Part shown: in pieces, positions 11,201-38,719 of the stretch
How positions within the stretch are numbered: position 1 is the first letter of the stretch
Layout of the letters: the number at the start of each line of letters is the position of its first letter
Assembly: GCA_964017185.1 (NCBI GenBank)
Contig: OZ024878.1
Location: forward strand, 15,509,351-15,573,350
Source of the DNA: Rugalucina vietnamica
Taxonomy: Eukaryota; Mollusca; Bivalvia; Lucinida; Lucinidae
Direction: 5' to 3'
Length of the DNA stretch: 64,000 nt
The notes under the pieces: model-generated
Told to the model about the DNA's origin: nothing
The model's database searches: none
The model's input: the letters and a program-made list of their open reading frames with translations, nothing else
Program-made: the position numbers and the translations under genes

Positions 11201-14200
11201 CGAGTCTGTTAAAACAGCCTCTTACATGTAGTGCTTTAAAGGCAATGTTAAGTTGCAAGCACAAGAGAGTAATGGCTCTTAAAATGATCATGACTTCATC
11301 ATTTTTGGAGGTCATGGAGTTAATAATATGGACAGATGATAAATTGTCAGATCGGAAAACTATCTTCTTGTTTTTAAGCTCTTGACCCCAAATGTGCAAG
11401 CACACCAAAAGAGGGAACATTTCCAGAACTGTTATATCAGCAGTAATGCCTTGATCAATCCACCACTGTGGCCAATGTGCACATGTCCATTTCCCAGCAA
11501 AGTATGCCCCAAAACCTAAGTCAGCACCGCCTGCACTGTCAGTGAATAACTGAACATCCTCATTTGAAACCCAGTAACGGTCATGAAATACAGATATGCC
11601 ATTAAACTCTGTAAAGAAATTCAACCAAAGCTGAAGATCCTCCTTCATAGCTAAAGTGATATTCAGATGATGATGAGGCTTGGTCAGGCCACAAATAGCA
11701 TTGATCAGTCGCCGACAGAATGGCCGTCCTGGAACCACTGCTCTACAAGCAAAATTGAGGGAACCAATCAAAGATTGCATTTCGCGCAAAGTACATTTCT
11801 TCCTTGCCAGCATACTCACAATTTTTTGTCGGATTTCCTCAATCTTTCCCATGGGAATACGAATGGTCATTTCCTCCGAATCAAGCTCTAAACCAAGAAA
11901 AGATAATTTGGTGGTAGGACCCTCTGTTTTATCGGAAGCAATAGGGACACCAAGTAATTGCATTTTATCCATGAAAACAGACATTATGAAAATGCAATCA
12001 TTGGTATCTTTCTTTCCTCCAAACAAAAAATCGTCTAAATAGTGTAATAAAGATCCACATGGGGATGCCCGTCTTACACAGAATTCTAAAAACGTAGCAA
12101 AAAGTTCCCAGGTCTGGCAAGAAATAGAGCAACCAAATGGCATAGCCTTATCCACATAGAACATCCCGTCAAACATAAAACCGAGCTGATCAATTTCGGA
12201 CAACGATACTGGTAGGATCCTAAAGGCTCGACGGACATCGGATTTCCCTAACAAACAGCCTTGACCCAGGTCCTGTATCATATGCACTGCTTCATCAAAG
12301 CTAGTATACTGCACAGAACAAAGTTTAGGATCAATGAAGTCATTTACAGAGTGGCCTGAGGGGAACGAGAGGTGGTGTATAAGTCGAAATTGATTGGGTT
12401 CCTTCTTAGGGACTAAACCAAGTGGAGAAATGCGTAATGTGGGAATTGGGCGGGAAATAAATGGGCCCGCAACTCTGCCTGCTGTTACTTCGGCTTGAAT
12501 TTTCTCCCGAACAATGTCTGGATTTCCTAAAGCTGATTTTAAGTTTTTCGAGTCCGAAGGAGAATGCAAACCAGAATAATGTAGAGGAAAACCAAGAGTG
12601 AACCCTTCCAAAATTGCCAATGCCTTAGAGGAATGATAACCATCAAGTTCTTGTCGTAGAGCTTCAATATTGATTGGGGATGAAGACAATGTGAATAGAT
12701 CCGGGGAAATTGTGTAATTTTGCCTGGCAGCGGATTTAACAGCTGAGGAATTACAGTCTGTTACCACGCCGGGCTTGAAGTCTTCCCCCACGGTTGGTTG
12801 TATAACCACGTGGTCCGCGAAAATTGGAACCCCCTCGATTGGCATAAGAACCCCTTGAATTAGCAGTAGACTGTTTGAAACATGTCACACGTCCATGACT
12901 GGGGTTATTACAGTTTGAACAGATATGCTTAAATTTACAGACAGTTCGTGGACAAAAACCATCATTAAAATCAAAACATGTACCCAAAACATGGTTGTCA
13001 TACTGCGAATTGCCAGTACTACTGCGACCACCTGTTAATGCACCCGGTTGTGTATTTTGTGGCATGTTGGAAGTAACCGTACTAGACGTCATAAGTCGAA
13101 GCCATAAATCAGAGTTAATCTTACCCCAAGACTGAACCTCGGATTCTTGACGCAAACGAAATTGCTCATCATATGATCGCCAAGTAAAGGTAACAGACCG
13201 GGATGCAGCCTCCCTGATAATGTTCATATACTGCAATATTTCCTGAATTTTGCTTGGGTAACGTTTTAAGTAGATGGAGGCAAATATCAGAAAAGCATCT
13301 GTCCACTTTTCGATATTGGGAACCTTATCTTTGGTATTAACCTGTGGCCTAGCCTCCAACTGACCTTTGCCTGTTAGGTGTACGACACCAGTGGAAAAAA
13401 GGTCTTGCAGTTCGACACTGCCCTTCAAAAGTAAAGCAAGATTAATATATTCGTGGGCCCATATTTTCTTGCAAAGCTGTTCTGGGACATGCGAGGCAAT
13501 ATCATCGGAACCTAACCGGACACGATTTTCAGCAAATGAAATTGACTGTAATGTTGGCAAAGTCTGTTGGGAGGCAGAAATTGCCGAAGGCAAGACGTTA
13601 GGACTAAGAGTCTGTTGAGCAGGTGGTGGTGGTGGTGGGGTAGAATCAGACACAGATCGCACTGAAGTTATATTTGCATCTGCTAGGATTTTTTCGAAAT
13701 CCACAAAGTTGAGCAAAGAGGGCTCCTTAGAGCCACGTATCGTACCTGGCGGGTGGCCTGAATTCGGTGCAATACCGGTACCAGGCCCACCCAGCAAATT
13801 GACCCTTTCAATTTCCTCTCTCTCTCCCGTTTCTTCGGTTTCCTGTCGCTTGCGCTTGGAACCACGACGTCTACGAGTAGTGTACATATCGAATCGAAGT
13901 CAAATCTTGAAATCAATTAACCAAAAAATTGAGAAATTAAGCAACACGTGTTTTTTTTTTAAAATTTTGGAGCGAAAGCAATGACAACCCGGATGTAGAA
14001 AAAAGGTTTTACGACATGCCGAAATTTCCAATAAATCAAATCCATAAACGCTTAATAATTTCAAGTTTCCAAAACAAGCGTCTGAGAATTGCAAGCGTTC
14101 GATTGTCCTGATCACAAACCCGGAAGTGTTTACTGTTGTGATAAAAAGTAAATAATTGAATATTTAAAGAATTGTAAAAGCTATGTCCGCTCAAAATAAA

Positions 14201-17200
14201 TGGGATTACGGTCCGGCCGTGAATCCCCATTATTTGGAACACATGTCAACGTTGTGTTGGGGACAATAAAATCAATGCAAGATGACTCCAACTACAAATC
14301 ATCAAAGACGGATACAGCATCTGAGCTGCCTCATGGGAAAACCAACAATGTGGTTTCCGAACAGGTCGGACACAAACTGGGCTGTAGAAGTACAGAAGAC
14401 AGCTAGAAGCTTGAAATTTCGGATTTAAGAAGAAGAGGAATTGTACTTTCCGAGTAGCGAAAACAAAGGCGCTGATCAGCTTCGCGGTTACCACGAAGCT
14501 GATCTGCGCCTTTATTTTCGCCTAAGCAGATTGTTGGTTTTCCCATGGGGCGGCTCATTTGTCAAGACAATGTGCTGTTCTAACAAAACTAATTTTCATG
14601 ACTATTTGATTTCATAATTTTGTTGTTAACTTCATTTTTGCGCCACTTATTTTTGGCGAACTACAGAACTGTCCTACGCAAAAACAACAACAATAAATAT
14701 GTCAAAATCAACATTTTCACTGCAATTTATTTCCGTGAATTATTCTTTCTTGAAAAAATTGTTCATGAAAATAAATTGATTACAGTAATTAAACTGAGCT
14801 ATGATAACCTACCCTGTTGGCATATTTGAGAGCATTTAGAGATTCATCAAAGTTGGTGGCCGATGGACTGATACAACAGATCATCAAGGTCTTAGCATTG
14901 CCTCCTAATGAATCCTGGAAACGTAGTATGACATATAAGAAATTAAACCTGTCTACACAGTTTCCAACCAGGCCTGACATAAACTGAGCTCTGCAGCCAA
15001 AGATGTTAAGATTTAGGAAGTAAAGGGACTGTATTGCATAAACTTTAGAATGTATGTATGGGCTTTGGTTTAAATTCACTCAGCCATTTTTGTATGAAGC
15101 CAATGCTTCCGCTGTGTTAACCAGTATATTCATTTAATGATTGAAATTCAGATTTTAGCTTTCATTGGATGATGAAAAACATCAGGCTTCTCGGAGACAT
15201 TAAAACAGCTAAAGGTGAAAGCTAAAATCAATACTTATATTTGAGCCTGTGCATGAGAAAACCAACAATTTGGGGTTCCGACCAGGTCTGACACAAACCA
15301 GGCTGCACAGTCACACAATAAAGCTAGAAGCTTGAAATTTCGGATTTAAGAAGAAGAGGAAGTGTACTATCCTTGTAGCGAAAACAAAGGCGCTGATCAG
15401 CTTCGCGGTCACCGCGAAGCTGATCTGCGTCTTTGTTTTCGCCTATGCAAATTGTTGGTTTTCTCATGCACAGGCTCATTTACATTTTATATTATCAATC
15501 AAGTATCAGATTTTTAATTGCACATATAACCGCTAATTTTCATGGTGATACACGACCAACGTCACCACAACAAGAGTAAACAAACAACATCACTGGCTGG
15601 TTTTGACGTCACCCCGCCTGTCCTCTAGATCATGTGACTTAATGTTTTTCATTGGGAAATGAAGAACATCGAGAAAGATGCTTTCATCTAGGGCGATTGC
15701 AATATAAATGTAAATACTGGATGTTAAATGTGTCTTGCCTATGGACATAAATCCATGTCCAAGTTGAGTTCAAGCCCAGGATGTCTTGATTTGGAGTCTA
15801 AGGATATACCACTAGGCCACAGCGCTCCCCTATAGGAAGATTTCAGGTACCTTTAACAATCTTGTAATCTTGGACTCTCTATAAGGAATGTGTGTACTCT
15901 TCTTCTTAGGGTCCCCGAGCGCACTGATAACATTACCCAGAGCCAACAGACCAGAGTTGATGTGTACTGATTCTGGAAATAATGAGAGAAATATGTAAAG
16001 CAGAGTAGACAGGTATAAGTGAGCTCTTTTTCTTAGGGTCCCGCAGTGCACTGATAACATTACCCAGAAACAGCAGACCAGAGTTAATGTGCACTGATTC
16101 TGGAAACAAAATCAAAGGACACATTGAGCCACTGCATTAGAAATCCAAAATATGCATAGGTGAAAACAAAGGCACATATCAGCAGTGCAGTAACTGCACA
16201 GATTGCACAGTGCCTCTTTTCCTTAAATCCAAAATTTCTTCATCTGTGATTCTACAGGCTAGATTGTGTTGGACCTGGTCGGAAATCAAAGTTGTTGGTT
16301 AACTCATGCGAAGGCTCATTTAATTATCAATTTTTTGATTTAGGGTCTAATGTATAGTTAAGGTTATATGGACACCTCCGTTTAAGGTCTCATCCAAAAG
16401 AAACCTGAAATAGAACCCACAAGCCATGGTTCAAAAGGTATGTGCTTCACTGTCAATGCCATGGAAGCTTCTAGCCCTCAAAGTGGGCACATAAATTTTG
16501 GCAAACATGGAAGATCAATTCATTTCATGATTTGAGCCGTCTCGTGGGAAAACCAACAATGTGGTTTTCGAACAGGTCCGACACAAACCGACCTGTAGAA
16601 GCACAGAAAAGAGCTAGAAGCTTGAAATTTTTAATTTCAGTAGAAGAGGAATTGTACTATCCGAGTAGCGAAAACAAAGGCGCTGATCAGCTTCGCATTT
16701 ACCGCGAAGCTGATCTGTGCCTTTGTCTTCGCAATGCAAATTGTTGGCTTTCCCATGAGGCGGCTCATTTATAATCTCTAAAAAAATTTATCCCTATAGC
16801 AATATGTATTGTCTTTCACCAACTCACCTTTGAATCTGTCCCCGACATTTCCAGTCTTATGAGCTCTCTCCGAGCCAGCTAAATCAACAAAGTGAAACTT
16901 TCCAACCATGTTGTGCGTAATTTCTGGAAAGAAAAAATAAATAAATACTCAGTTTTGTTTGTTTTTATGTTAAATGGCCCAGTCAACAATTTTTCTGCAT
17001 GTGAGGACAGAGTCACCGCTTCCTGCATTTTGACCTAAACAATGGTGATTAATGTGTCTTACTCCAGGCCCAGAGGTTATATATCTTTTTTCATGCTCAG
17101 CTCAGCTGAGACTAAAATTTAACATGCTCATAAATGTTAAAATGCCAACAATTATGCCAACAATTGTTGGCATTTTAACATTTATGAGCAGCATAAATTA

Positions 17201-20200
17201 CACGCTTTTGGAGTTCTAAACCTTCAATTTCAATATATTTGGGCTATTTTTGTATTTATGAGCAGTTTAAATTTGAGTCTCAGCTGAGCTGAGCATGAAA
17301 ACAGTTTTTAAATTTATAACCTCGGGGCCAGGACACAACACAGAAACAGTGGGTTTCAAACCTCTGGCTTCAGGATCCCACAGCACTCCCTAAATACTCA
17401 ATTACGTAAATAGATATGTTCAGCATTAAAATGTTTATGTCACATGCATACATTTTGCTGCAGCAATATTTTTGACATTAAGCCAATAAATTATTTTTTA
17501 TAAATTAGCAATTAAGCTGAAAATCTTATCGAGAGTCACGATGCCAGAAAACCTGTCTTTCTGATTTCTGACCAGGTTGGACACAAACAAGACTGTACAG
17601 CCACAGAAGAAGGCTTAAAGCTTGAAATTTCGGATTTAAGAAGAAGAGGCATTGTACTACCCATGCAGCAAGCTTAAAGGTGCTCATCAGCTGTGCAGTT
17701 ACGGCATATATGATTTGAGTCTTTTGTTGTTGTTTTTTGCATATAGGTTAAAAGCTGGTTTTCTCATGATGCTGCACATAGGAGCCACATTGTGCTATTA
17801 TTACCCAACCTTCTATATACAGAGTAATAGCATATTTTTTGCTATATTATGAGTTGGTCTCTGACTGGTCCATAGTTTTGGATATAACATGGGACTATAC
17901 CATGGCCTGGTACCCAGCTCAAAAGATAATATACAATGGCCTGGTACCCATCTCAATAGATATCAGAGCTAAAGCAATGTTTCACAAGTTCACCTGTTGG
18001 TCTCAACTGAGCATGCCCGGACCGGTCCATAGTTTTGGATATAACATGGAACTATACCATGGCCTGGTACCCAGCTCACAGGATTTTAAGGTACATATGT
18101 ATAAGCTGCTAGATGTTATAAAGTAACCAAATCAGAGAATAGATTGGTGATAATTGAAAACACAAATGCAGTTGACGAATGTGGACAGTCTGAACAGCTT
18201 TTTTATACCAAATTGTCGACTTCTCCATTAATGGAAATGTATCTTTTGAAGATGTTAGAAGTCCAATTTGATTTTGAACTGATATGAAGAGTCAGACTAA
18301 TTCAATCTCCATGGTCTCTAGCATATCAGTTATTGTTGGGTAATAAAACAGTTATTTCATGGGTGTTTAATAAATAGTCAAAACAATTGCCCCTTGGCGC
18401 CTCGGATGACCATGGTGGACTATTGCCCTCGGCCTTCGGCCTCGGGCAATAGTCCACCATGGTCATCCTCGTCACCTCGGGGCAACAGTTTTGACTATTT
18501 ACCAAAAGCCCATGAAGTAACTGTTTACTATTGATTCCTTTTTGGCATCTGTAACATTACTATGCCCATGTAAGATATAGATTTTTCTAAAGTTGTAAAA
18601 AAACTGAAAAATTCTAGCAGAATTTTTTATATTTTTTTCTCATTTTTGCTCCAAAACATAGACTGTGGGTACACGTTAGAACCGCCTCTAACGAGTACCC
18701 ACAATCTATGTTTTGGAGCAAAAATAAGAACCAGAGGACCAATGGTCCTGTAAACGCTCACCTGAGATCTGCTGCATATACGTGTACCAATAAACATGTT
18801 TTAATATAATGGTATTTAACCCAAGTGTAAGGGCAGATGAAGCCCTAGGGCCATTTTCTTTTTTCAGAATAATCAATATTCTGTCCATTTGCCAATTTCT
18901 TGCTGGCTTTTCCCTTCAAATGACATTTTAACAGTTTTTCCCATTCAAATTCATGGGCAACCCATGTTGACCTTGCCATAAACTGGGTCAAGGTTGTCAC
19001 AGGTCATGATTTAGATATACATTGTAGTACTTTAGCCATCGATGCTTCACTCCAAAGTTCATGGAAATTTGTAAAATGGTTCAGAGAAAAAGATTTATAT
19101 GGGCATGGCGGCCATCATGGTAATGTGACCTAGATAATTAACAAACACATTGATTCCCCCATCCTATAGATGCTTCAGATAAAATTTGGCTTTAATTGGC
19201 CAAGTGGTTTCAGAGGAGAAGAAGTTTGAATATTATGGTATTATACATGTATACTGTCCCAGGGTGGGGGCATATGAGCCCTTGGGTCCATTTGTTTTTT
19301 TTTTTGTTTTTTTCAGAATCATTAATATTTAATCCTTCTGCCCATTTTCCCCATTCAAATGCATTGGCAACCTATGTAGACCTTGTCGTAAAATAGGTCA
19401 AGGTCACCACAGTGTCAGATTTATATATACATTGTAGTGCTTGAGCCATATATACTTCATGCCAAGTTTCATTGAAATCGGTCCACCGGTTCTGGAGAAG
19501 AAGATTTTTGAAGGTTTTCTACCATTATTGGCATGGCGGCCATCTTGGTAATGTGAACTAGATTATTTATACACACATTGATTCCCCAATTCTATAGACG
19601 CTTTACATAAAATTTGGCTTTGATTGGTCTAGCGGTTTCAGAGGAGAAGATATTTGAATATTATGGTAATTTACATGTATAATGCCCCAGGGTGGGGGAA
19701 GATGAGCCCCTGGGGTCCAGTTTTTTTTTTCAGAATCATTAATATTCAGGCCTACTGCCCATTTCCTGTAAGACTTTCACTTTATATGACATTTTTAACG
19801 TTCTCCCCATTCAAATGCATTGGTGACCTATGTTGACCTTGCTGTAAAAAAGGTCAAGGTCACCACAGTGTCATGATTTATATACACATTGTAGTGCTTG
19901 AGCCATATATACTTCGTGCTAAGTTTCATTGAAATCGGTCCACCGGTTCTGGAGAAGAAGATTTTTGAAGGTTTTCTACCATTATTGGCATGGCGACCAT
20001 CTTGGTAATGTGAACTAGATTATTTATACAAACATTGATTCCCCAATTCTATAGACGCTTTACATAAAATTTGGCTTTGATTTGCCTAGCGGTTTCAGAG
20101 GAGAAGATATTTGAATATTATGGTAATTTACATGTATAATGCCCCGGGGTGGGGTAAGATGAGCTCCTGGGTTCCATTTTATTTCAGAATCATTAATATT

Positions 20201-23200
20201 CAGTCCTACTGCCCATTTCCTGTAAGACTTTCACTTTATATGACATTTTTAATGTTCTCCCCATTCAAATGCATTGGTGACCTATGTTGACCTTGCCGTA
20301 AAAAAGGTCAAGGTCATCACAGGGTCATGATTTATATATACATTGTAGTGCTTGAGCCATAGATGCTTCATGCCAAGTTTCGTTGAAATTGGTCCACCAG
20401 TTCTGGAGAAGAAGATTTTTTTTGAAGGGTTTTTACCATATATGGGCATGGCGGCCATCTTGGTCATGTGACCTGGATTTCTTATATACACATTGGTTCC
20501 CCCTTCCTATTGATGCTTCAAATAAAATTTGGCTTTGATTGGCCAAGCGGTTTCAGAGGAGATGATGTTTGAATATGATGGTAAAGTACAGGTATATTGC
20601 CCCGGGGTGGGGGCAGATGAGCCCCTGGGGTCAAAACTTTTCAGAATCGTCAATATTCAGTCCTACTGCCCATTTCCTGCAAGATTTTCACTTTAAATGA
20701 CATTTTAAAATTTTTCCCCATTCAAATGCATTGGTGACCTATGTTGACCTTGCCGTAAAGAAGGTCAAGGTCATCACAGGGTCACGATTTATATACACAA
20801 TGTAGTGCTTGAGCCATCGATGCCTCATGCCAAGTTTTGTTGAAATCGGTCCATCGGTTCTGGAGAAGAAGATTTTTGAAGGGTTTTTACCATATATGGG
20901 CATGGCGGCCATCTTGGTCATGTGACCTAAATTTCTTATATACACATTGGTTCTCCCTTCCTATTGATGCTTCACATAAAATTTGGCTTTGATTAGCCAA
21001 GCGGTTTCAGAGGAGATGATGTTTGAATACTATGGTAATGTACAGGTATATTGCCCCGGGGTGGGGGCAGATGAGCCCCTGGGGTCAAATCTTTTTTCAG
21101 AATCATCAATATTCAGTCCTACTGCCCATTTCCTGCAAGATTTTCACTTTAAATGAGATTTTAAAATTTTTCCCCAATCAAATGCATTGGCGACCTATGT
21201 TGACCTTGCCGTAAAATAGGTCAAGGTCATCACAGGGTCACAATTTATATACACATTGTAGTGCTTGAGCCATCAATGCTTCATGCCAAGTTTCGTTGAA
21301 ATCGGTCAACCGGTTCTGGAGAAGAAGATTTTTGAAGGGTTTTTACCATATATGGGCATGGCGGCCATCTTGGTCATGTGACCTGGATTTCTTATATACA
21401 CATTGGTTCCCCCTTCCTATAGATGCTTCATTTAAAATTTGGCTTTGGTTGGCCAAGTGGTTTCAGAGAAGAAGATCTTTGAAATTGTGAACGGACGGAC
21501 GGACGACAGACGGACGGACGCCGGATCATGGCCATCCTATAGTGAGCTAAAAATAGGTATACCTCTCCATATCCCAGTTTTGCTATATAAAATTGGGGTA
21601 TAAGGGGGTATATATTACACAGACATATTATCCTTTGATAGTGTGTTTCCCAATGTGGTATAGATATTTACACTCCTGAAAGTTACAGAATATTTTCTAA
21701 ACATCATGCTTAGCACCCAAACCAAATCTAAGAATAAACAGTGATATGCAAATGCCATTCAATAGGTGCTCATGTAAACAAACATGCCTCATGCACACCA
21801 TTCTCTGATTAAAAAAAAATGAAGAAAATCCATAACCTGACAGAACTACTCCATTTGCCATGGTGATAGAAACCCTTTTCCAATAAACTGCCTCTGTCTA
21901 ATTGTCTAAGTTAGAAAAATTTAGTGATATCAAACATTCCAAGTAATTAAATGTGTAGTAACAAAGATAAAATTCAAAAGAGGAAATTTACCATCCATTT
22001 CTCTACTAAATATGCTTCCTGAAAAAGTACAGCATCACGTGGAAACTGTTTCTTTTTTTTTTTTTCTTTTTTTTTTTTTTGCCTATGCGAAATTAAAGGC
22101 GCAAATCATTTGTGCAGTTTCTTTTTTTTCGCAAATCTGATATAACAATTTCTCTTCTTCTTAGTTTTTAAATCAGAAAATTTAAACTTCTAGCTTTTTT
22201 ATGAAACTGCACAGGCCGGTTTGTGTCAGACCTGGTCAGACACCCCAAAGACTGGCAAGACACTCCAATTGTAAACAAGGGACAATTTTGTGTAGTACAG
22301 AGGGTCTTATTAGTCTATTCATAATGTATTTATGTCTATGTCTATGCATTCATGCCGTCATATTTATTTAATGTCTATGCATATGTATTTATGTCTGTGT
22401 AAGGCATATGTTTAAATTTCTTTATAAAAAAAATACATGGAAAGATTATGAAAATTTACAGTTTATGGTATAAACGAAAATACACATGTAAATCTTTAGA
22501 TAATCTCTGAGGCCCTTACAGGGTTTTGGGAAGCTGGAGAGAAATACTGTTTATTATTACAGACCTGGGGAGCAAACACAGTTTGGGGTTTTTGGAGAGC
22601 ATGGGCAAAATTGTTTTAGGGAGATGAAGATGAACAATGTGGAGATCAAGGGTCTTTTGTTTAGGAAGCAGAGACCACCTGTAGGGTCCTCATTTCTTCT
22701 ATCTGGCAGATGATGTTGGACAATCAAGAAGACATCAGCATAAATTTACGCAGATGGGAATGAGAGGTGAGGGGTGGGAGGTATAAAACAAGAAACTTAC
22801 GATCATCCAGTGGTTCGTCGGCTTCATCTTGTTTTCTCTTGCTGGCCATTATATCACCTTCTGACCATTCTTGACCTGAAATAAATAATACTGACATGAC
22901 AAAACCTAAAGATGCTTCTAGATGTGCAGTGACTGTCCAGTGACTTTGATTCCAATTCAATATCGGTACCTCTTCTTCATAAATCTCAAATTTCAAGCTT
23001 CTAGCCTTCTTCTGTGGCTGTTTAGGTCAGTTTGTGTCAGACCTGGTCGGAAACCCCAAAGATAGGATTTCTCATGACATATCTCATACAATATCAGGCA
23101 TGGATGAGGTGACCTTCATGCTTTACATCATATCCCCGCCCCCAAACAGCTCAAGTCATAATATGAGACCTCAATTTGAAGCCTCATCTGAAAAATTGGC

Positions 23201-26200
23201 CTTTGAGAGCATCAGCTCAAACTCATTACCCCTCGTCAACCTTGCAAGTGGCTTAACCACTATGCTGCATAGGCTTCTGAAGTCAAAAACAGTGGTCTAA
23301 ATTGACTTCAAAGGTTCAAATGAAACAACAACTAGACAGGATTATACATATTTCCCTTACCTACAGTAACTGTAAATATAGAGTGAGATCTGCTGGAATG
23401 TTTGTTCATCTGTGAAGACCCCGTGTGTCTGAATGCGGACCCCGAGACAAGCAGAGACATGCCTTACCTATAGTAATTGTGAATATAGAGTAGGATATGC
23501 TGGAATGTTCGTTCATCTGTGTAGACCCTGTGTGTCTGACTGCGAACCCGGAGACTAGTAGAGACATGCCTTACCTACAGTAACTATGGATATAGAGTGA
23601 AATCTGCTAGAATGTTTGTTTATCTGTGTAGACCCTGTTTGTCTGACTGCAGACCCAGAGACTAGCAGAAACATGCCTTACCTACAGTAACTGTAAATAT
23701 AGAGCTAGATCTGCTGGAATGTTCGTTCATCTGTGTAGACCCCATGTGTCTGAATGCGGACCCTGAGACTAGCAGAGGCATGCCTTACCTACAGTTACTG
23801 TGAATATAGAGTGAGATCTGCTGGAATGTTCGTTCATCTGTGTAGACCCCGTGTGTCTGACTGCGGACCCCGAGACATACCTTACCTACAGTTACTGTAA
23901 ATATAGAGTGAGATCTGCTGGAATGTTCATTCATCTGTGTAGACCCCGTGTGTCTGAATGCGGACCCTGAGACTAGCAGAGACATACCTTACCTACAGTT
24001 ACTGTAAATATAGAGTGAGATCTGCTGGAATGTTCATTCATCTGTGTAGACCCCGTGTGTCTGAACGCGGACCCTGAGACTAGCAGAGACATGCCTTACC
24101 TAAAGTTACTGTGTATATAGAGTGGGATCTGCTGGAATGTTTGTTCATCTGTGTAGACCCGTGTGTCTGACTGCGGACCCCGAGACCAGCAGAGACATAC
24201 CTTACCTACAGTTACTGTAAATATAGTTTGGGATCTGCTGGAATGTTCATTCATCTGTGTAGACCCTGTGTGTCTGACTGCGGACCCCGAGACCAGCGGA
24301 GACATGCCTTACCTACAGTTACTGTGAATATAGAGTGGGATCTGCTGGAATGTTCATTCATCTGTGTAGACCCTGTGTGTCTGACTGCAGATCCCAAGAC
24401 ATGCCTTACCTACAGTTACTGTGAATATAGAGTGGGATCTGCTGGAATACTCGTTCATCTGTGTTGACACCGTGTGTCTGACTGCGGACCCCGAGACCAG
24501 CAGAGACATGCCTTACCTACAGTTACTGTGAATATCGAGTGGGATCTGCTGGAATGTTCGTTCATCTAAGTAGACCCCGTGTGTCTGACCGCCGACCCGG
24601 AGACTAGTAGAGACATGCCTTACCTACAGTAACTGTGAATATAGAGTGAGATCTGCTGGAATGTTCGTTCGTCTGTGTAGACCCTGTGTGTCTGACTGCG
24701 GACCCCAAGACTAGCAGAGACATGCCTTACCTACAGTTACTGTGAATATGGAGTGAGATCTGCTAGAATGTTCGTTCTTCTGTGTAGACCCCGTGTGTCT
24801 GACTGCGGACCCTGAGACTAGTAGAGACATGCCTTACCTACAGTAACTGTGAATATAGAGTGGGAACTGCTGGAATGTTTGTTCATCTGTGTAGACCCTG
24901 TGTGTCTGACTGCAGACCCAGAGACTTGCAGAGACATGCCTTATCTACAGTAACTGTAAATATAGAGTGAGATCTGCTGGAATGTTCGTTCATCTGTGTA
25001 GACTCTGTGTGTCTGACTGCAGACCCCGAGGCTAGCAGAGACATGCCTTACCTACAGTTACTGTAAATAGAGTGGGATCTGCTGGAATGTTTGTTCATCT
25101 GTGTAGACCCCGTGTGTCTGACTGCAGACCCTGAGGCTAGCAGAGACATGCCTTACCTATAGTTACTGTAAATATAGAGTGAGATCTGATGGGATGTTCG
25201 TTCATCTGTGTAGACCCTGTGTGTCTGACTGCAGACCCCAAGACCAGCAGAGACATGCCTTACCTACAGTTACTGTGAATATACACTGAGACCTGCTGGA
25301 ATGTTCGTTAATCTGTGTAGACCCCGTGTGTCTGACTGTGGACCCCGAGACTAGCAGAGACATGCCTTACCTACAGCTACTGTAAATATAGAGTGGGATT
25401 TGTTTGTTCATCTGTGTAGACCCCGTGTGTCTAACTGCGGACCCCAAGACATGCCTTACCTACAGTAACTGTGAATATCGAGTGGGATCTGCTGGAATGT
25501 TCGTTCATCTGTGTAGACCCTGTGTGTCTGACTGCCGACCCCGAGACCAGCAGAGACATCACATCATCCAGGGTGTCACATTCAACCTCCTGATGGCCTA
25601 TCACAACTGTAATAAAATACCAACAACCATCAATGCTCATGCTACAAAGTAACGTTTCACGATAACCAGTATGAGCAATGGCAAGTTGGCAACAAACCAT
25701 GTTCATACATCACATGAATTTCTTAGTTGGAACATGGATCTTGTTGTTTGATGGTCATGGCTTTGGAACTACTGTAGATCCAGAAATATTCGCGAGAACT
25801 TAATTTTCGCTAATATTCGCGAATTGGCAGTCTCGCGAATTCAAAGTTCTCGCTAATAAAGTTATTATAAGCTTCATAGACATTATGAGTATCCGCTCGC
25901 AGATTTAAGAACTCGCTAATAATTCGGAAATAGAAAATTCGCGAAATAATAGTCACACGAAAATTTCCGAATTTACAGTATTTGATAATACAATTCAAAC
26001 TCATTAAAGCATGACTCTCTATGGCTTCAAACAGCTATGTTCAAATATATTTGAGCCTGTGCGTGAGAAAACCAACAATTCGGGTTCCCACCAGGTCTGA
26101 CACAAACCGGGCTGTACAGTCACAGAAGATGGCTAGAGGCTGGAAATTTTGGATTTAGAAAGTAGAGGAATTGTACTATCCGTGTAGCGGAAACAAAGGC

Positions 26201-28513
26201 GCTGATCAGCTTCGCAGCTACTGCGAAGCTGATCTGCGTCTTTGTTTTCGCCTATGCAGATAGCTGGTTTTCCCATGTGGCGGCTCATTTAAGGAAGAAT
26301 TTTTGTTTGTACCTGTGTTTCCTTTATCATCCTCTCGTACATGAAGATCTTTGCTTGACGTCTCTAGATCCAGGAGATCTTGTAACTCTTCCTTGTAGAT
26401 CTCTATGTATGACACCTTCACAGAATATCTCACTGTCTTATCAACCTGAAAAAGGCAATAAACCATCGTAAATTTATGTACATTATTTATATCTTATTCT
26501 CTAAACCTTTGCTGGTGTAAGCTGGTAATCGTCCATTGGAAGGCCCCATTTACTATTAAGTCACTTTCTTTCATCAAGAATTCTGTCTCAAAGCTAGTAT
26601 TCCCCCTGTTTGGCGATTGTTAATCAAAACTGTATCATATTCACTGAGGGGAGCATGGAGGCCTTGTGGTAGAATTCAGGACTCTGGAGCGAGAGGTCCT
26701 TAACTCAATACCTATCTTGTCCATGTATGTGTCCTAGAGAAGCACTATTAAAACTTTTTTCATGCTCAACTCAGCTGAGCATGAAATTTAATGTGCACAT
26801 AAATACTGAAATAATCCAAATAAATTGAAATTTCAGGTTTAGAACACCAAAGCCTGTAATTCATCCTGCTCATAAATGTTAAAATGCCAACAATTGTTGG
26901 CATTTTAACATTTATGAGCAGGATAAATTTTAGTCTCAGCTGAGCATGAAAAAGGTTTTATAACCTCGGGCCCTGGTGGATACTCAGGAAGCGCTGGCTC
27001 AGTCCCGACAATTGTTGACTGGGCTGTTAAGCTATTACCAAACCAAACAATATTCAGTGAACTAACCTGCATGATATCAAACATCTGTTTGACAGCCCGA
27101 GGTATGATGCCATACTCGTCCTCTGTTAGGGACGATATGTGCCCTCCTCCTATTGTATATGTCTTCCCTGAACCCTGAATAGTATAGAAAAACACTTGTA
27201 AATAGGTTAATTAAACAGTTATTCACCAAAAATCATTATAGTTAAACTATAAAAGTTGAATCCTCTGGAAGCAGTGAAAACATTCAAAGGGAGATATTAT
27301 GGGGCCTATGGGCCAATATAACACAAACATGTCATGGCTATCTACTAAAAGGAAAAAAGAGAAAACCTCTAAACTCACTTTGACTGATGGATCTAAGCTC
27401 TGTCATCATATTTTATCATAATTATAATCACAGAATAAATGAGCCGTGACGCGAGAAAACCGGTCTTTGGTGTTTCCAACCTGGTCGGACACAAACTGGC
27501 CTGTACAATCACAGGAGCATGCTACAAGCTTGAAATTTCGGATTTAAGAAGAAGAGAAATTGTACTATCCGTGTAGTGAAAACAAAGGCGCTGATCAGCT
27601 TCGCAGTTACTGCAAAGCTGATCTGCACCTTTGTTTTTGCATAGACAAAAATCCGGTTTTGTCACAATGCGGCTCTAATAGATAGCTGAAGAGATCTAAA
27701 ATGAAAACCCTAAAACAGAATATATCAAAACTCCTACCGTCTGACCATATGCAAACACTGTAGCATTATATCCATCAAATATAGACTTCACCAAGTTCTC
27801 TACACACAGTTTGTACATATCCTCTTGCGAACTTTTAGGACTGAGGACGTCATCAAAAGTGAATGCCCTATCTTTGCCCATGATCAGCTGGTTGGTTGCT
27901 GGTAGAATACGGACACACATATCTTCACCAGAAACCTTCTCCTTAGGCAATAGTGGGCGCACCTGTTGAATAAACAATGATGGGTGTCAAACTCTTGATA
28001 TTTAAAATAGGTAGCAAAAATGCAATGGTTACTTTCATAAGATTGCTTTTATTTTTTTATTTTTTTTATTTTTTTTTTTTTTTATTTATTTACTATTTTT
28101 TTTTTGAGGTTTCTTTTGAAAATTCTTGGATTAACAACAAGCTCAAATAATGGCATGTATTATAATTCCATACGTTTAAGACATCTAAATGTCTATAAGC
28201 TAAGAATAAAAAAAACTCAAAATCAACCATATTTCAAGCATATTGTTTTGTGAAGACTTGATCATGAAAATACGTGTCACACTCAAGAGTACAATTTCAC
28301 ACCAGAAGGTGTTTGAACCTCAGACCTCTCAATCTGGTGTTCTTACTAGTAGGCCACTGCACTCCCCTATTGACCCCTTAAATATCTGTGAGCATTTCAA
28401 GCTGATGAATTATCTTGACCAGTGTAAAAAAATGTTGGACTTTCTAAGATGCCTACCCTGACTGCCACTCTAACATTCACTTCTTGCATCGTAGATTTCT
28501 CTTTCCCTTCCAT
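5099..28513 (-). CDS. KIF27: KIF27/KIF7 (Costal-2-type) kinesin, N-terminal 496 residues, 13 exons, 3' end outside window
   Basis: Kinesin-4-family motor related to KIF27, KIF7 and fly Costal-2. In other animals these act in Hedgehog signalling and at ciliary tips. I joined thirteen minus-strand exons: 28513-28457, 27962-27738, 27174-27067, 26445-26313, 25606-25460, 22875-22801, 16923-16828, 15972-15851, 14914-14813, 8357-8277, 6975-6854, 6494-6359 and 5209-5126 (or 5099). All have GT/AG borders and compatible phases, and they total 1488 bp or 496 codons with no stop. The motor shows the P-loop GQTGSGKTYT across exons 2 and 3, [16 protein letters not shown], switch I NEHSSRSH, switch II DLAGSER, and the neck-proximal [23 protein letters not shown] and [13 protein letters not shown] match KIF27/KIF7 better than KIF4 or KIF21. 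The stalk continues past the last exon seen. One invertebrate gene may serve for both vertebrate paralogues. Confidence 0.93.
5360..5630. mobile_element. Possible MITE with TTCTTGCACGCC ends and CRE-like sites
   Basis: ATTCTTGCACACC (5360) and GGCGTGCAAGAA (5617) are inverted. Between them are three CRE-like sites (GACGTCAC, CACGTCAC, TGACGTCA) and AAAATGGCGG. In intron 12 of the kinesin gene. Confidence 0.45.
6359..6494 (-). CDS. KIF27: KIF27/7 exon 12
   Basis: This 136-bp exon encodes [20 protein letters not shown], then [20 protein letters not shown] and DLMEE. Helical stalk with phase 2 entry and phase 0 exit. The donor is GTTAGT. Confidence 0.87.
6590..6835 (-). mobile_element. tRNA-derived SINE, second family
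   Basis: On the minus strand the A-box-like CCCAGTGGTAGAGTAAC and B-box-like CAGGTTGGATTCC are followed by a body ending TTGTCGACTGGGATGTTAAG. That tail matches the GTTGACTGGGACGTTAAAC tail of other copies in the window. Confidence 0.68.
6854..6975 (-). CDS. KIF27: KIF27/7 exon 11 (start of stalk)
   Basis: This 122-bp exon encodes [20 protein letters not shown] then [20 protein letters not shown] and ends in phase 2. The sequence is helical and charged, as expected of the first stalk segment. Confidence 0.87.
7000..8270. other. Kinesin intron 10, no distinct feature
   Basis: Unique-looking AT-rich sequence between exons 11 and 10. No MITE ends, ORF or repeat was recognised. Confidence 0.6.
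8277..8357 (-). CDS. KIF27: KIF27/7 exon 10 (neck)
   Basis: This 81-bp, phase-0 exon encodes [20 protein letters not shown] then EMQTEIK. It follows YANR directly, as in KIF27 and KIF7. The acceptor is TTTTTAG and the donor is GTAATG. Confidence 0.9.
9514..10139 (-). CDS. Ngaro SGNH (GDSL-like) hydrolase
   Basis: The frame starts after a TTCTTCCAG that looks like a splice acceptor and reads [20 protein letters not shown]. Block I is [16 protein letters not shown] follows, block III is [20 protein letters not shown] comes next, and the catalytic D..H is in [13 protein letters not shown] near the C terminus. A predicted esterase ORF downstream of the recombinase is a known feature of Ngaro elements; its role is unknown. 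An ATG-initiated version would start at 10050 and lack block I, so splicing or another start is likely. Confidence 0.82.
10207..11082 (-). CDS. Ngaro tyrosine recombinase
   Basis: About 291 residues from [20 protein letters not shown]. Catalytic residues are visible: Arg in [14 protein letters not shown] (H-x-x-R), Trp in GRWKSDAV, and the nucleophile Tyr in DGYIRL. This enzyme integrates circular DNA copies and so explains the absence of a DDE integrase. There is no ATG at the start. The frame is open upstream into the RT ORF ([13 protein letters not shown]), one base back from the RT frame, so a -1 frameshift fusion is possible. Confidence 0.9.
   Translation of the reverse strand: MLASSIAPNTRSVYDNALSAFEQFRNNYSLHVIWPVPTQHVTLFIAHSFELGYSPSTIASYLSGISFYHKLHNYQDPTNAFVVKKLLEGFKRSRKSRDVRAPITEHILRRICHVLPNICYSDFESCLFQSAYFLSYFALLRVSEVVFSSYLQPDRPLLSGDIELVDDGNTLLITIRISKTNQRGLPTTLHIPKSEDSSFCCVTTIRHYMHLRPANAYYFFSHANGTPLTQSQFSAVLAKAVRVLRLPTGIYTSHAFRIGRATDLASKGISSDAIKKLGRWKSDAVDGYIRL
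11088..12845 (-). CDS. Ngaro reverse transcriptase - RNase H
   Basis: 585 residues. RT motifs in order: [47 protein letters not shown], and the catalytic YLDDFLFGG. RNase H follows with [17 protein letters not shown] and [18 protein letters not shown] and this RNase H type match DIRS/Ngaro elements. The frame is fully open with the catalytic aspartates present. It ends six bases before the annotated recombinase start. Confidence 0.9.
   Translation of the reverse strand: MPIEGVPIFADHVVIQPTVGEDFKPGVVTDCNSSAVKSAARQNYTISPDLFTLSSSPINIEALRQELDGYHSSKALAILEGFTLGFPLHYSGLHSPSDSKNLKSALGNPDIVREKIQAEVTAGRVAGPFISRPIPTLRISPLGLVPKKEPNQFRLIHHLSFPSGHSVNDFIDPKLCSVQYTSFDEAVHMIQDLGQGCLLGKSDVRRAFRILPVSLSEIDQLGFMFDGMFYVDKAMPFGCSISCQTWELFATFLEFCVRRASPCGSLLHYLDDFLFGGKKDTNDCIFIMSVFMDKMQLLGVPIASDKTEGPTTKLSFLGLELDSEEMTIRIPMGKIEEIRQKIVSMLARKKCTLREMQSLIGSLNFACRAVVPGRPFCRRLINAICGLTKPHHHLNITLAMKEDLQLWLNFFTEFNGISVFHDRYWVSNEDVQLFTDSAGGADLGFGAYFAGKWTCAHWPQWWIDQGITADITVLEMFPLLVCLHIWGQELKNKKIVFRSDNLSSVHIINSMTSKNDEVMIILRAITLLCLQLNIAFKALHVRGCFNRLADTLSRFQLQKFHELAPDADPEPSTVPNHLWNIFKQV
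12751..13887 (-). CDS. Ngaro Gag-like protein with zinc finger
   Basis: 378 residues. A basic, charged N terminus ([17 protein letters not shown]) and a proline run are followed by a helical middle ([20 protein letters not shown]). Near residues 300-330 a Cys/His cluster reads CFDFNDGFC, then [20 protein letters not shown]. The C terminus is Arg/Gly-rich ([18 protein letters not shown]). Its end overlaps the start of the RT ORF by 95 bp in another frame, so RT expression probably needs frameshifting or re-initiation. Confidence 0.8.
   Translation of the reverse strand: MYTTRRRRGSKRKRQETEETGEREEIERVNLLGGPGTGIAPNSGHPPGTIRGSKEPSLLNFVDFEKILADANITSVRSVSDSTPPPPPPAQQTLSPNVLPSAISASQQTLPTLQSISFAENRVRLGSDDIASHVPEQLCKKIWAHEYINLALLLKGSVELQDLFSTGVVHLTGKGQLEARPQVNTKDKVPNIEKWTDAFLIFASIYLKRYPSKIQEILQYMNIIREAASRSVTFTWRSYDEQFRLRQESEVQSWGKINSDLWLRLMTSSTVTSNMPQNTQPGALTGGRSSTGNSQYDNHVLGTCFDFNDGFCPRTVCKFKHICSNCNNPSHGRVTCFKQSTANSRGSYANRGGSNFRGPRGYTTNRGGRLQARRGNRL
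14323..14556. mobile_element. MITE family A copy (GAGCCGCCTCATGGG ends)
   Basis: About 235 bp. Terminal inverted repeats read GAGCYGCCTCATGGGAAAAC then CAACAAT. The centre is a hairpin, AAAGGCGCTGATCAGCTTCG against CGAAGCTGATCTGCGCCTTT. There is no ORF. It is in intron 9 of the kinesin gene, next to the Ngaro element. Confidence 0.9.
14813..14914 (-). CDS. KIF27: KIF27/7 exon 9 (end of motor core)
   Basis: This 102-bp, phase-0 exon encodes [20 protein letters not shown] then [14 protein letters not shown], the last strand and helix of the motor core. The following intron contains the Ngaro retrotransposon. Confidence 0.94.
15243..15477. mobile_element. MITE family A copy (GAGCCTGTGCATGAG ends)
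   Basis: Same hairpin core as the other A copies, but the outer ends are GAGCCTGTGCATGAG and CTCATGCACAGGCTC. The copy at 26053 shares its left end, which suggests a subfamily. Confidence 0.9.
15735..15835 (-). mobile_element. tRNA-derived SINE head (second family)
   Basis: Minus strand: GGGGAGCGCTGTGGCCTAGT then GGTATATCCTTAGACTCC and CCTGGGCTTGAACTC. A and B boxes are recognisable. It lies directly downstream of kinesin exon 8. Confidence 0.72.
15851..15972 (-). CDS. KIF27: KIF27/7 exon 8
   Basis: This 122-bp exon encodes [20 protein letters not shown], then [20 protein letters not shown] and K, the conserved helix 4 / microtubule-contact block. A broken second copy lies 50 bp upstream in the gene (16025-16102). 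Confidence 0.93.
16025..16102 (-). pseudogene. Truncated duplicate of KIF27/7 exon 8
   Basis: Preceded by a TTTCCAG acceptor, it encodes [20 protein letters not shown] then DPKKKSS and then leaves the exon sequence before [14 protein letters not shown]. The donor end is missing and the A/L and G/R changes are radical, so it is a relic rather than a usable exon. It sits between exons 7 and 8 of the gene. Confidence 0.85.
16150..16317. mobile_element. MITE family A, partial and degenerate
   Basis: Has GAAAACAAAGGCAC, a shortened hairpin, and the right end GTTGGTTAACTCATGCGAAG. The left third is missing. It lies 50 bp from the truncated exon 8 duplicate. Confidence 0.7.
16534..16766. mobile_element. 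MITE family A copy
   Basis: Complete copy with ends GAGCCGTCTCGTGGG and CCCATGAGGCGGCTC and the core hairpin CTGATCAGCTTCGC / GCGAAGCTGATCTG. It lies 60 bp beyond the donor of kinesin exon 7. Confidence 0.9.
16828..16923 (-). CDS. KIF27: KIF27/7 exon 7 (switch II, DLAGSER)
   Basis: This 96-bp exon encodes [20 protein letters not shown] then [11 protein letters not shown], with the kinesin switch-II motif DLAGSER. The acceptor is TTTCCAG and the donor is GTGAGT. Confidence 0.94.
16972..17400 (-). mobile_element. SINE (second family) interrupted by MITE B
   Basis: The tail GTTGACTGGGCCATTTAAC and body are at 16972-17066; the head GGGAGTGCTGTGGGATCC is at 17333-17395. Joining the parts across the MITE restores AGTAAGACACATTA / GTGTCCTGG in the usual order. 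Confidence 0.7.
17069..17327. mobile_element. MITE family B with CCAGG target duplication
   Basis: Ends CCCAGAGGTTATA and TATAACCTCGGGG-type, then TTTTCATGCTCAGCTCAGCT inverted at both ends. The centre is GTTAAAATGCCAACAATTGT palindromic. CCAGG occurs directly outside both ends (17064-17068, 17328-17332). Inserted in a SINE. Confidence 0.85.
17533..17776. mobile_element. MITE family A, degenerate copy
   Basis: Recognised by GACCAGGTTGGACACAAAC, CTTGAAATTTCGGATTTAAG and GTTAAAAGCTGGTTTTCTCA. The hairpin core has decayed. Confidence 0.72.
17868..18080 (+). repeat. Imperfect tandem duplication (~148-bp spacing)
   Basis: GGTCCATAGTTTTGGATATA then ACATGGRACTATACCATGGC and CTGGTACCCAGCTCA occur at 17868 and 18016; a third partial unit (CAATGGCCTGGTACCC) is at 17935. 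In intron 6 of the kinesin gene. Confidence 0.8.
18348..18525. mobile_element. Perfectly folding 178-bp palindromic MITE
   Basis: Ends AACAGTTATTTCATGGG and CCCATGAAGTAACTGTT. The centre GACTATTGCCCTCGGCCTTC folds onto GGCCTCGGGCAATAGTC. The stem is GC-rich compared with its surroundings. Intron 6 of the kinesin gene. Confidence 0.85.
18571..18729. mobile_element. Palindromic MITE split by the 18.73-21.55 kb repeat (left part)
   Basis: The GCTCCAAAACATAGA.TGTGGGTAC arm folds back through TAACGAGTACCCACAATCTATGTTTTGGAGC. The right part (GTATACCTCTCCATATCCCA...) resumes at 21550-21633. An unsplit relative is at 54.04-54.29 kb. Confidence 0.8.
18730..21549. repeat. CCAGAGGACC...GAGCTAAAAATA interspersed repeat, copy 2, with six ~450-bp tandem units
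   Basis: Has the same start as copy 1 and the same GACGGACGGACG...GTGAGCTAAAAATAG end. GGCATGGCGGCCATCTTGGT recurs about every 450 bp (near 19.09, 19.54, 19.99, 20.45, 20.90 and 21.36 kb). Each unit has TGACCTTGCCGTAAA...AGGTCAAGGTCA and CGGTTCTGGAGAAGAAG. It lies in intron 6 of the kinesin gene, inside an older palindromic element. Confidence 0.88.
22078..22250. mobile_element. MITE family A, degenerate part
   Basis: GCCTATGCGAAATTAAAGGC, then AATTTCTCTTCTTCTTAG and GGCCGGTTTGTGTCAGACCT, i.e. the right half in inverted order after a poly-T run. Confidence 0.7.
22801..22875 (-). CDS. KIF27: KIF27/7 exon 6 (variable motor loop)
   Basis: This 75-bp exon encodes a charged stretch, [20 protein letters not shown] then PLDD. 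It lies between the switch-I and switch-II exons, where KIF27-type motors have a divergent loop. The borders are TTTCAG and GTAAGT. It is supported by position, phase and borders rather than by strong conservation. Confidence 0.85.
22975..23078. mobile_element. MITE family A, right half only
   Basis: CTCAAATTTCAAGCTTCTAG, GTTTGTGTCAGACCTGGTCG and GATTTCTCATGAC match the arm of complete copies. The hairpin is missing. Confidence 0.75.
23345..25560 (-). repeat. Tandem array of the switch-I exon fragment plus splice donor, about 21 copies including the real exon
   Basis: The unit is about 105 bp (some copies 95). On the minus strand each unit has the 3' part of exon 5, from ATGTCTCTGCTGGTC through [20 protein letters not shown], then the donor GTAAGGC. 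It is fused directly to the next ATGTCTCTG. The 5' exon part and the true acceptor are present only once, at the gene-proximal end. Copies carry scattered substitutions, and the reading frame shifts between units. All extra copies lie in intron 5. Confidence 0.93.
25460..25606 (-). CDS. KIF27: KIF27/7 exon 5 (switch I)
   Basis: This 147-bp exon encodes [19 protein letters not shown], then [20 protein letters not shown] and SHSIFTVTV. It holds the switch-I motif NEHSSRSH needed for ATP hydrolysis. Its acceptor (ATTACAG) is unique in the region. Its 3' two-thirds plus the donor are repeated about 20 times downstream, so this is the only copy with a complete exon start. Confidence 0.92.
25771..25982. 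mobile_element. Palindromic MITE TACTGTAGATCCAGAAAT...TTTACAGTA
   Basis: The left end TACTGTAGATCCAGAAATAT and right end TTTCCGAATTTACAGTA are inverted. Inside are several TTCGCGAA motifs and ACTCGCTAATAA repeats. In intron 4 of the kinesin gene, just upstream of exon 5. Confidence 0.7.
26053..26286. mobile_element. MITE family A copy
   Basis: Complete copy with mixed ends (GAGCCTGTGCGTGAG left, CCATGTGGCGGCTC right) and a near-perfect hairpin core, CTGATCAGCTTCGCAGC / GCGAAGCTGATCTGCG. Its right end is 27 bp from the donor side of kinesin exon 4. Confidence 0.9.
26313..26445 (-). CDS. KIF27: KIF27/7 exon 4
   Basis: This 133-bp exon encodes [20 protein letters not shown], then [20 protein letters not shown] and KGNT, and leaves one base (phase 1). 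It directly abuts a palindromic MITE (26053-26286) downstream of its donor. Confidence 0.92.
26648..27035 (+). mobile_element. SINE (second family) interrupted by MITE B
   Basis: Head GGGGAGCATGGAGGCCTTGT then GGTAGAATTCAGGACTCTGG at 26648-26746; tail CAATTGTTGACTGGGCTGTT near 27005-27030, after the MITE. Confidence 0.7.
26747..26971. mobile_element. MITE family B copy
   Basis: TTTTTTCATGCTCAACTCAG to CTGAGCATGAAAAAGG and TATAACCTCGGG, with the central ATGCCAACAATTGTTGGCAT palindrome. The left tip is truncated. It interrupts a SINE, and CCTGG follows the right end. Confidence 0.85.
27067..27174 (-). CDS. KIF27: KIF27/7 exon 3 (P-loop GSGKTYT)
   Basis: This 108-bp, phase-0 exon begins with [12 protein letters not shown], which completes the nucleotide-binding loop, and ends with [16 protein letters not shown]. 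The IGGGH stretch is typical of KIF27/KIF7. The donor is GTTAGT. Confidence 0.92.
27441..27675. mobile_element. MITE family A copy (GAGCCGTGACGCGAG subtype)
   Basis: Ends GAGCCGTGACGCGAGAAAAC and GTTTTGTCACAATGCGGCTC. Shares the GGTCTTTGGTGTTTCC subtype sequence with the copy at 61.8 kb. It lies 63 bp from kinesin exon 2. Confidence 0.88.
27738..27962 (-). CDS. KIF27: KIF27/7 exon 2 (motor, up to P-loop)
   Basis: This 225-bp exon has phase 0 at both ends. It encodes [15 protein letters not shown] through [13 protein letters not shown], including the FTFDDV strand and the first half of the P-loop. The acceptor is TTCAACAG and the donor is GTAGGA. Confidence 0.93.
28040..28110 (+). repeat. Poly-T tract
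   Basis: Interrupted T-runs (TTTTTTTATTTTTTTTATTT). It lies just upstream of kinesin exon 2 on the minus strand. Confidence 0.9.
28300..28375 (-). mobile_element. SINE head fragment
   Basis: Minus strand: ATAGGGGAGTGCAGTGGCCT then ACTAGTAAGAACACC and AGAGGTCTGAGGTTCAAAC. It is within 85 bp of the first coding exon of the kinesin gene. Confidence 0.68.
28457..28513 (-). CDS. KIF27: KIF27/7 exon 1 (start codon exon)
   Basis: This 57-bp exon encodes [19 protein letters not shown] and ends at a GT donor. It joins in phase 0 to the VRPLLPKE of exon 2, giving the expected first motor strand [12 protein letters not shown]. The start is the first ATG in the frame. A second in-frame ATG eight codons later is also possible. 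The 5' UTR and promoter were not resolved. Confidence 0.88.
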
Positions 28514-31286: not shown

Positions 31287-32265
31287 AGCTCGCCTGGACA
31301 AAAGTACAGGAAGAGCTATTGCAATCACCCCAGCGTCGGTGTCGGCGTTTGTGTTCGCGTTCGCGTTGCTCAAATGTTAAAGTTTTTGATTAAAGTTTTT
31401 ATAAGACTATATCTCTTGAACATGTTGATGGATCAAGTTGATACTTTGCATGTTAGTAGATAGTGGTCTGAAATTTTATGCAGTACCATCATGACCTACC
31501 TTGGGTGACCTTGAGGTCAAGGTCACGGACTTGGAAAATTTGTGTTAAAGTTTTTGGTTGAAGTTTTTATAAGTCTATATCTCTTGAACATGTTGATGGA
31601 ACAATTTGATACTTTGCATGTTAGTAGATAGTGGTCTGAAATTTTATGCTGTACCATCATGACCCACCCTGGGTCACCTTGAGGTCAAGGTCACGGACTT
31701 AGAATTTTTGTGTTAAAGTTTTTGATTAAAGTTTTTATAAGTCTTTATCTCTTGAACATGTTGATGGATCAAGTTCATACTTTGCATGTTGGTAGATATT
31801 GGTCTGAAGTTTTATGCAGTACCATGGTGACTCACCCTGGATGACCTTGAGGTCTAGGTCACAGACTTAGAAATTTTGTGTTAAAGTTTTTGGTTAAAGT
31901 TTTTATAAGTCTACATCTCTTGAACATGTTGATGGATCAAGTTGATACTTTGCATGTTGGTAGATATTGGTCTGAAGTTTTATGCAATACCATCATGGCC
32001 CACCGTGGGTGACCTTGAGGTCATGGTCACAGACTTAGAAATTTTGTGTTAAAGTTTTTGGTTAAACTTTTTATAAGTATTTACATCTTGAACATGTAGA
32101 TGTATCAAGTTGATACTTTTGTTTGTAGATATTGGTCTGAAGTTTTACGCTGTACCATCACGACCCACCTGAGTGACCTAGAGGTCAAAGGTCATTCGTT
32201 ATAGATTTTGATAGATTTAGTGGCAAAGCACAAGTCAGGCGAGCTACGCTGTCCTGCGACAGCTC
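31287..32265 (+). repeat. AGCTCGCCTG-bounded repeat with five ~180-bp tandem units
   Basis: Begins TTTTTAGCTCGCCTGG and ends CAGGCGAGCT, i.e. inverted ends. Inside are five copies of a 170-180-bp unit containing TATCTCTTGAACATGTTGAT, TACTTTGCATGTT and TGACCTTGAGGTCAAGGTCA. The last motif is a near-perfect palindrome of the nuclear-receptor half-site TCAAGGTCA. It lies inside the Foldback element. Confidence 0.82.
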
Positions 32266-37891: not shown

Positions 37892-38223
37892 TAATGGGAA
37901 TGCACTCCGTTTGCCCACTTTCCAGTCTATAGAGATGTGCCCATAAATTTCTCCTATATTTTTTATTAACACTCTGACATTAATTGTTGTTTTAACCCTG
38001 TTTGACTGGGAAATGTTGGTTTCAATATCAGAACTTGGTAATTACTCTGCCAAAAGTTAGGTTGATAGTAGGCCAGTTATTGTTTTAAAAATTGTTGCTC
38101 TTTGTTGTTTCGCTTGCTGGGTTTGGATATAAACTGTGTCATGATATCATAGTTGACACAGATTAGACTGTTGAAAAAAATGTGAATCTCTTGTGTTTTT
38201 GTAACAGTGCAAATAAGTAAGTG

Positions 38224-38715: not shown

Positions 38716-38719
38716 CGGT

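Follow-up and report, generated by a model that had tools for sequence, protein, structure and literature searches.

A mirage-type minisatellite carrying an exon end and its splice donor in a kinesin gene of the bivalve Rugalucina vietnamica

Tandem repeats that lie across an exon-intron boundary have been described under the name of mirages in the globin and Adh3 genes of lancelets, where they occur on the donor as well as the acceptor side (PMC3087553). Unit numbers of six and three are given there for two haplotypes of a single gene, and the RT-PCR of that account suggests normal splicing despite the repeats. Mirages in TnC and PGBD5 were added in a further account and are said there to yield no aberrant mRNAs (PMC3902484). 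Boundary repeats are also on record for human genes: the minisatellite of IFI6 (6-16) supplies multiple splice donors (as cited in PMC2572611 and PMC4526556), and variable internal tandem repeats at the exon-intron boundaries of duplicated genes are reported to alter splicing (PMC2812944). A related process is the gain of introns through tandem duplication of segments containing AGGT (Rogers 1989 and Hellsten 2011, as described in PMC4974935). The literature searched, which covers the field in part, yielded no molluscan report of such arrays.

Here we describe an array of this kind in a kinesin gene of R. vietnamica. The window, that is, the whole stretch of DNA analyzed, is 64,000 nucleotides long and belongs to a contig of 57 Mb. 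The gene lies on the minus strand of the window, where six coding exons join into an open frame of 240 amino acids (Table 1), and more motor exons of the same kinesin are found near 16.9 and 15.9 kb. The predicted protein contains a kinesin motor domain (Pfam PF00225, E 4e-63) and has KIF7 as its best solved relative in a PDB search (E 3e-70); we call the gene KIF7/KIF27-like, its kinship with KIF27 being our assumption. Exon 5 encodes the peptide NEHSSRSH, which we take to be the switch I motif.

The tandem array at the end of this exon was found by TRF at 23355-25559, with a period of 107, 21.0 copies and a score of 3199. Each unit joins ~100 nt from the end of exon 5 to ~7 nt of intron (GTAAGGC); the acceptor of the exon and its initial 47 nt are not part of it. 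A script parse of the minus strand located 21 donor positions, 20 of which read GTAAGG, and the array occupies about 2.1 kb of the 2584 nt of intron 5; no GTAAG is present in the 479-nt unrepeated part. A preliminary description of this DNA had spoken of about 20 tandem switch-I exon copies with a donor but without an acceptor, placing some 20 extra donors inside intron 5. All of this was borne out, one of the 20 donors being dead (ATAAGG). Its coordinates needed adjustment: the authentic donor starts at 25459, 25460 being the end of exon 5, and the far limit of the range 23345..25606 is the start of exon 5. The period of ~105 bp given there was approximate as well, with donors spaced 107 nt apart in 15 of 20 steps and 89, 97, 97, 105 and 106 nt apart in the other five. 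Alignment of the 21 copies over 107 columns gave a mean pairwise identity of 90%, with five copies gapped in the coding part. On both strands of the whole 64-kb window, the string AGGTAAGG was counted 20 times within the array and one time outside it. The array is a mirage-type minisatellite that spans an exon-intron boundary and whose unit carries the splice signal.

Table 1. Features of the kinesin gene (window positions) and exon-edge arrays at other loci of the same genome (L numbers; C numbers are contigs). The slash marks the exon-intron junction. Splice sites of the other arrays were judged by eye, and their copy numbers include the authentic copy.
Feature	Position	Strand	Side and copies	Basis
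First coding exon found, ATG at 28489	28457..28489	-		translation, splice sites
Coding exon 2	27738..27962	-		translation, splice sites
Coding exon 3, P-loop GSGKT	27067..27174	-		translation, splice sites
Coding exon 4	26313..26445	-		translation, splice sites
Authentic coding exon 5, 147 nt, acceptor TTACAG	25460..25606	-		translation, splice sites
Authentic exon-5 donor GTAAGG (TAG/GTAAGG), starts 25459	25454..25459	-		parse
Intron 5, 2584 nt	22876-25459	-		splice sites
Intronic array	23355..25453	-	20 extra copies	TRF, donor parse, alignment
Single dead donor ATAAGG (TAG/ATAAGG), at 24944	24939..24944	-		parse, alignment
Unrepeated rest of intron 5, 479 nt, acceptor TTTCAG	22876..23354	-		splice sites
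Coding exon 6	22801..22875	-		translation, splice sites
Extra upstream copy of later exon, acceptor and ~88 nt	16011..16109	-		
Authentic later kinesin exon, 121 nt	15852..15972	-		splice sites
L025, switch-I exon end with donor of another kinesin	4926-5389 of C2:33646000-33654000		donor-side, 5 copies	
L026			acceptor-side, 2 copies	
L028, kinesin P-loop exon with acceptor CTTACAG	3998-4945 of C10:32695500-32702000	-	acceptor-side, 6 copies	
L030			acceptor-side, 4 copies	
L041, first place			donor-side, 4 copies, one without GT at the donor	
L041, second place			tandem overlap, splice side ambiguous	
L050, two places			acceptor-side, 5 copies and 2 copies	
L060			acceptor-side, 2 copies, diverged	
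L063, PFAS exon end with donor	270-641 of C1:80526000-80527300		donor-side array	

The surrounding region is rich in tandem repeats, with other arrays at 19345-21483 (457 bp x 4.7), 31375-32194 (168 bp x 4.9) and 58432-59430 (49 bp x 20). TRF also reported similar blocks with ACCACTAAGA decamers at 42243, 43829, 45404 and 47530, ~1.58 kb apart and the last one inverted. At 9514-13899 on the minus strand, open reading frames that encode a tyrosine recombinase domain and a reverse transcriptase domain belong to a DIRS/Ngaro-like retroelement, and those with a PHD finger, an endonuclease and a reverse transcriptase at 38217-41581 on the plus strand form a non-LTR retroelement.

The kinesin array resembles the lancelet mirages in unit size (150-160 bp in globin, 60 and 108 bp in PGBD5; PMC3087553, PMC3902484), in having boundary-spanning units with a splice site, and in the presence of such arrays on both sides of exons and in several genes of one genome; the concerted evolution reported for the units of one globin gene we count as a further likeness. 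It differs in its 20 extra copies, in belonging to a mollusc genome and in being known from one assembled haplotype, and the signature of exchange between exon and array described below is a feature of the kinesin array that goes unmentioned in the portions of the lancelet accounts we drew on. The human internal repeats likewise overlap exon-intron boundaries, but their units average 30 bp with four copies, and novel introns are reported for them (PMC2812944). As in intron gain by AGGT duplication, the kinesin unit contains AG/GT, so that duplicates can be removed by splicing and leave the protein unchanged. Intron 5 nevertheless runs on for 479 unrepeated nucleotides past the array to an acceptor of its own, which speaks against its being a new intron produced by such a duplication. 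IFI6 shares with the kinesin gene an arrangement of tandem units that each have a donor at the exon end. The IFI6 unit is short, at 12 bp, and its minisatellite was reportedly presented by Turri in 1995 as providing multiple splice donors. IFI6 makes isoforms from two downstream units (PMC4526556), whereas the downstream donors of the kinesin gene would all lead to a stop.

Partial copies of exons are not restricted to exon 5. A second duplication in this kinesin gene, at a later exon (15852-16109, minus strand), mirrors the donor array: the copied acceptor sits 127 bp upstream of the authentic one, and its use would shift the frame. A kinesin search of the genome gave at least 133 matches (122 of 251 candidates scored), of which 12 were in this gene and 121 outside it, and 78 of the outside matches fell in the 36 genome regions that were examined. 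At nine places in seven regions, 13 of these 78 exon matches (17%) overlapped a local tandem partner, compared with 2193 of 10800 random intervals (20%) that overlapped local tandem pairs in the same 36 regions; exons are therefore struck about as often as their surroundings. The rule that is visible is that surviving copies carry a splice site on their intron-facing side, which we read as survivorship. Donor-side and acceptor-side forms are both present in this genome. For example, the end of another kinesin's switch-I exon is repeated at L025, where the four extra copies have an in-frame TGA in common, while the P-loop exon of L028 is repeated in units of ~166-170 bp, one of its six copies being internally deleted. 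L063 belongs to PFAS (PDB match E 1.1e-4, Pfam E 4e-6); its first extra unit is 108 nt long and open, so that splicing at the second donor would lengthen the protein by 36 amino acids in frame. Among the short translations scanned, Pfam matched this PFAS string and two kinesin strings, and there was no convincing match for five from other listed arrays. A further candidate, L062 (C10:11441400), resembles a diverged whole exon at 68% identity and was not counted as an array copy. Three closely spaced myosin-head exon matches to the same part of the profile (C3:16465077, 16466025 and 16467003) are possibly alternative exons of a muscle myosin. A muscle-type myosin fragment of this genome had squid and scallop myosins as its best PDB matches (E 7e-85 to 1e-84), followed by vertebrate and arthropod chains at 5e-74 and weaker, in agreement with a molluscan origin; lancelet genomes are about half as large as the 1.09 Gb of this one.

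Donor arrays were also sought by motif across 1.09 Gb. Three AGGTAAG motifs separated by gaps of 75-105 gave 1609 matches and the same motif read backwards (GAATGGA) gave 416, while the control motifs GAGTAAG and GAATGAG gave 392 and 1496 in the same pattern; the raw matches, which are dominated by a few large arrays, therefore prove no enrichment. A hand count of distinct places on contig C1 found at least 20 for AGGTAAG (about three of which resemble short simple repeats), 1 for GAATGGA and 9 for GAGTAAG, and is suggestive only as a sign of donor-array enrichment. As single motifs, AGGTAAG, GAATGGA, GAGTAAG and GAATGAG occur 35, 28, 14 and 34 times, respectively, in 259 kb of examined DNA.

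It had earlier been suggested that skipping could lengthen exon 5 by multiples of about 105 bp. This needs amending: the first step measures 89 nt, and when the exon was extended by script to each later donor position, the reading frame was lost within the first intronic copy and the same stop was reached at codon 224 in 20 of 20 extensions, in every case at least 63 nt upstream of the next exon junction. Given this shared stop, no later-donor product is a longer kinesin, and such transcripts would encode truncated proteins and probably be sensitive to NMD. Most likely, the donor at 25459 is the one chosen, as it alone would make a short exon, of 147 nt, with the genuine acceptor. From established splicing knowledge, the choice would be based on exon definition together with the order of transcription, in which this donor comes first, and errors involving later donors would be removed or useless. 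In every other array examined as well, choosing the shortest exon would be right and choosing the shortest intron wrong; the authentic copy, which runs on into the rest of the exon, gives the shortest exon, as is required if the additional copies are intronic. To treat donor choice as an open question, as had been done, was too strong, since mirages with normal splicing are reported from lancelets and exon-edge copies recur in this genome.

We favor the view, at a probability of roughly 85%, that the array is a passive mirage, born at the exon edge, with past exchange between exon and array. A tandem duplication would have taken up 100 nt from the end of exon 5 together with ~7 nt from the start of intron 5; as each unit included a donor, the exon would still have been complete with the first copy, and further copies would have become intron, to be spliced out and hence largely tolerated. 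The array may then have expanded and mixed by unequal exchange or conversion, and array and coding exon may have swapped sequence during their history. Two other ideas were tried and set aside. A simple scheme in which copies were captured from the end of the exon in order is opposed by the private changes of the copies, which show no gradient with distance (rho 0.03), as well as by the four-gamete failures given below. A role in telescripting or poly(A) protection was dropped since AATAAA and ATTAAA are absent from the sense strand of intron 5.

The case for exchange comes from the variants that the copies carry. Variant letters in columns 1-99 of the 21-copy alignment were classed by the reading frame of exon 5, for which the neutral expectation is about 27-29% synonymous. 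Variants present in two or more copies comprised 15 synonymous and 5 nonsynonymous changes, whereas those present in one copy comprised 8 and 36, one being a stop (Fisher p = 3.4e-5). In each of the two wrong frames 2 of 20 shared variants are synonymous, which ties the effect to the true frame. It was also observed with the 20 intronic copies by themselves (13/5 shared versus 10/36 singleton, p 3e-4). Recurrent CpG mutation could inflate the shared class, and with changes that destroy or create a CpG dropped, the signal is weaker yet present (6/3 versus 8/31, p 0.012). Exon 5 differs from the array consensus at six coding positions within the unit; all six differences are silent, and each of the six exon letters also occurs in intronic copies. 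In addition, among sites at which variants are widely shared, the four-gamete test failed for 55 of 78 pairs. From these patterns we infer past sequence exchange between exon and array, which may have gone in either direction. They suggest that private changes were born in unconstrained intron copies and would be neutral, while changes that spread had an exon history or took part in exchange: such variants would either have gone through the exon or have existed alongside it, and would have been filtered for protein change. No current coding constraint is evident in the intronic copies. The other arrays provide a less favorable picture. A small pooled test of five of them, with the internally deleted L028 copy left out, gave no significant contrast (10/4 shared and 27/20 single variants, p 0.53), and the in-frame stop shared by the extra copies of L025 is missing from the L025 exon, which counts against the exchange signature. 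A more far-reaching proposal treats the exon and the 20 intronic copies as a single system in which sequence moves both ways, the array storing silent variants that overwrite the switch-I exon while protein-changing versions are purged by selection. We offer it tentatively, and consider it rather doubtful.

The foremost rival to a passive mirage is an attenuator, in which 20 roughly equal donors compete with the first and the length of the array sets the fraction of productive kinesin mRNA. The donors would be suited to this: 20 of 21 are intact and identical over TAG/GTAAGG, which is the least variable nine-column window and the sole one among 99 to have no more than one variant cell, and every alternative gives the same premature stop at codon 224, at least 63 nt before the next junction. 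The use of two downstream repeat-unit donors reported for human IFI6 (PMC4526556) is a possible precedent. However, the conservation is not significant on singletons, of which the donor nonamer has 1 against 4.0 expected (P 0.09), and the exon filter by itself can remove shared donor changes; we do not claim selection to keep the extra donors. Lancelet mirages, moreover, are reported as not disturbing splicing (PMC3087553, PMC3902484), and the near-background rate of copies at other kinesin exons suggests a general mutational process. An attenuator appears improbable to us.

Recursive or self-correcting splicing would make use of the fact that the units end in AG/GTAAGG and so allow re-splicing to the same junction of exons 5 and 6. 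TAG directly precedes the donor position in every unit, a splice from a donor to a unit end would leave the mRNA unchanged, and an ACAG 9 nt upstream is preceded by 6-13 pyrimidines in 17 positions. The context of the TAG itself is less accommodating, with 8-10 pyrimidines in 17 positions where the acceptors of coding exons 2-6 have 11-13 and both those of the later duplicated exon have 14, and a branch-site-like YTNAY is present in 9 of 21 copies, at a distance of only 23 nt from the donor. We therefore regard this reading as very unlikely. Slightly less likely still is an assembly artefact: tandem arrays are error-prone, but the copies are ~10% apart with private changes, the contig is of chromosome scale, and the same class of array is found at other exons. 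That the copies serve as alternative or mutually exclusive coding exons has next to no chance of being right, for although 14 of the 15 intronic copies without gaps, each considered by itself, are open in the frame of the exon, frame and neutrality contradict it, every copy lacking both a full acceptor of its own and the initial 47 nt of exon 5, the 107-nt unit leaving a remainder of 2 on division by three, the singletons being neutral with one a stop, and five copies having indels.

The finding extends mirage-type arrays, so named in lancelets, to a mollusc genome in which partial exon copies are recurrent. For splice-site choice it provides a natural test, with 20 donors of the same nonamer in exon contexts of ~100 nt that are ~90% identical, so that the donors differ chiefly in their distance from the acceptor. 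The mirage type itself has already been described in lancelets, and the exchange between exon and array is the part worth following. Comparing shared with private variants by reading frame gives a simple detector of exchange between an exon and its intronic copies, and if the two-way movement of sequence proposed above is true, the exon's own sequence would be partly a copy of its intron.
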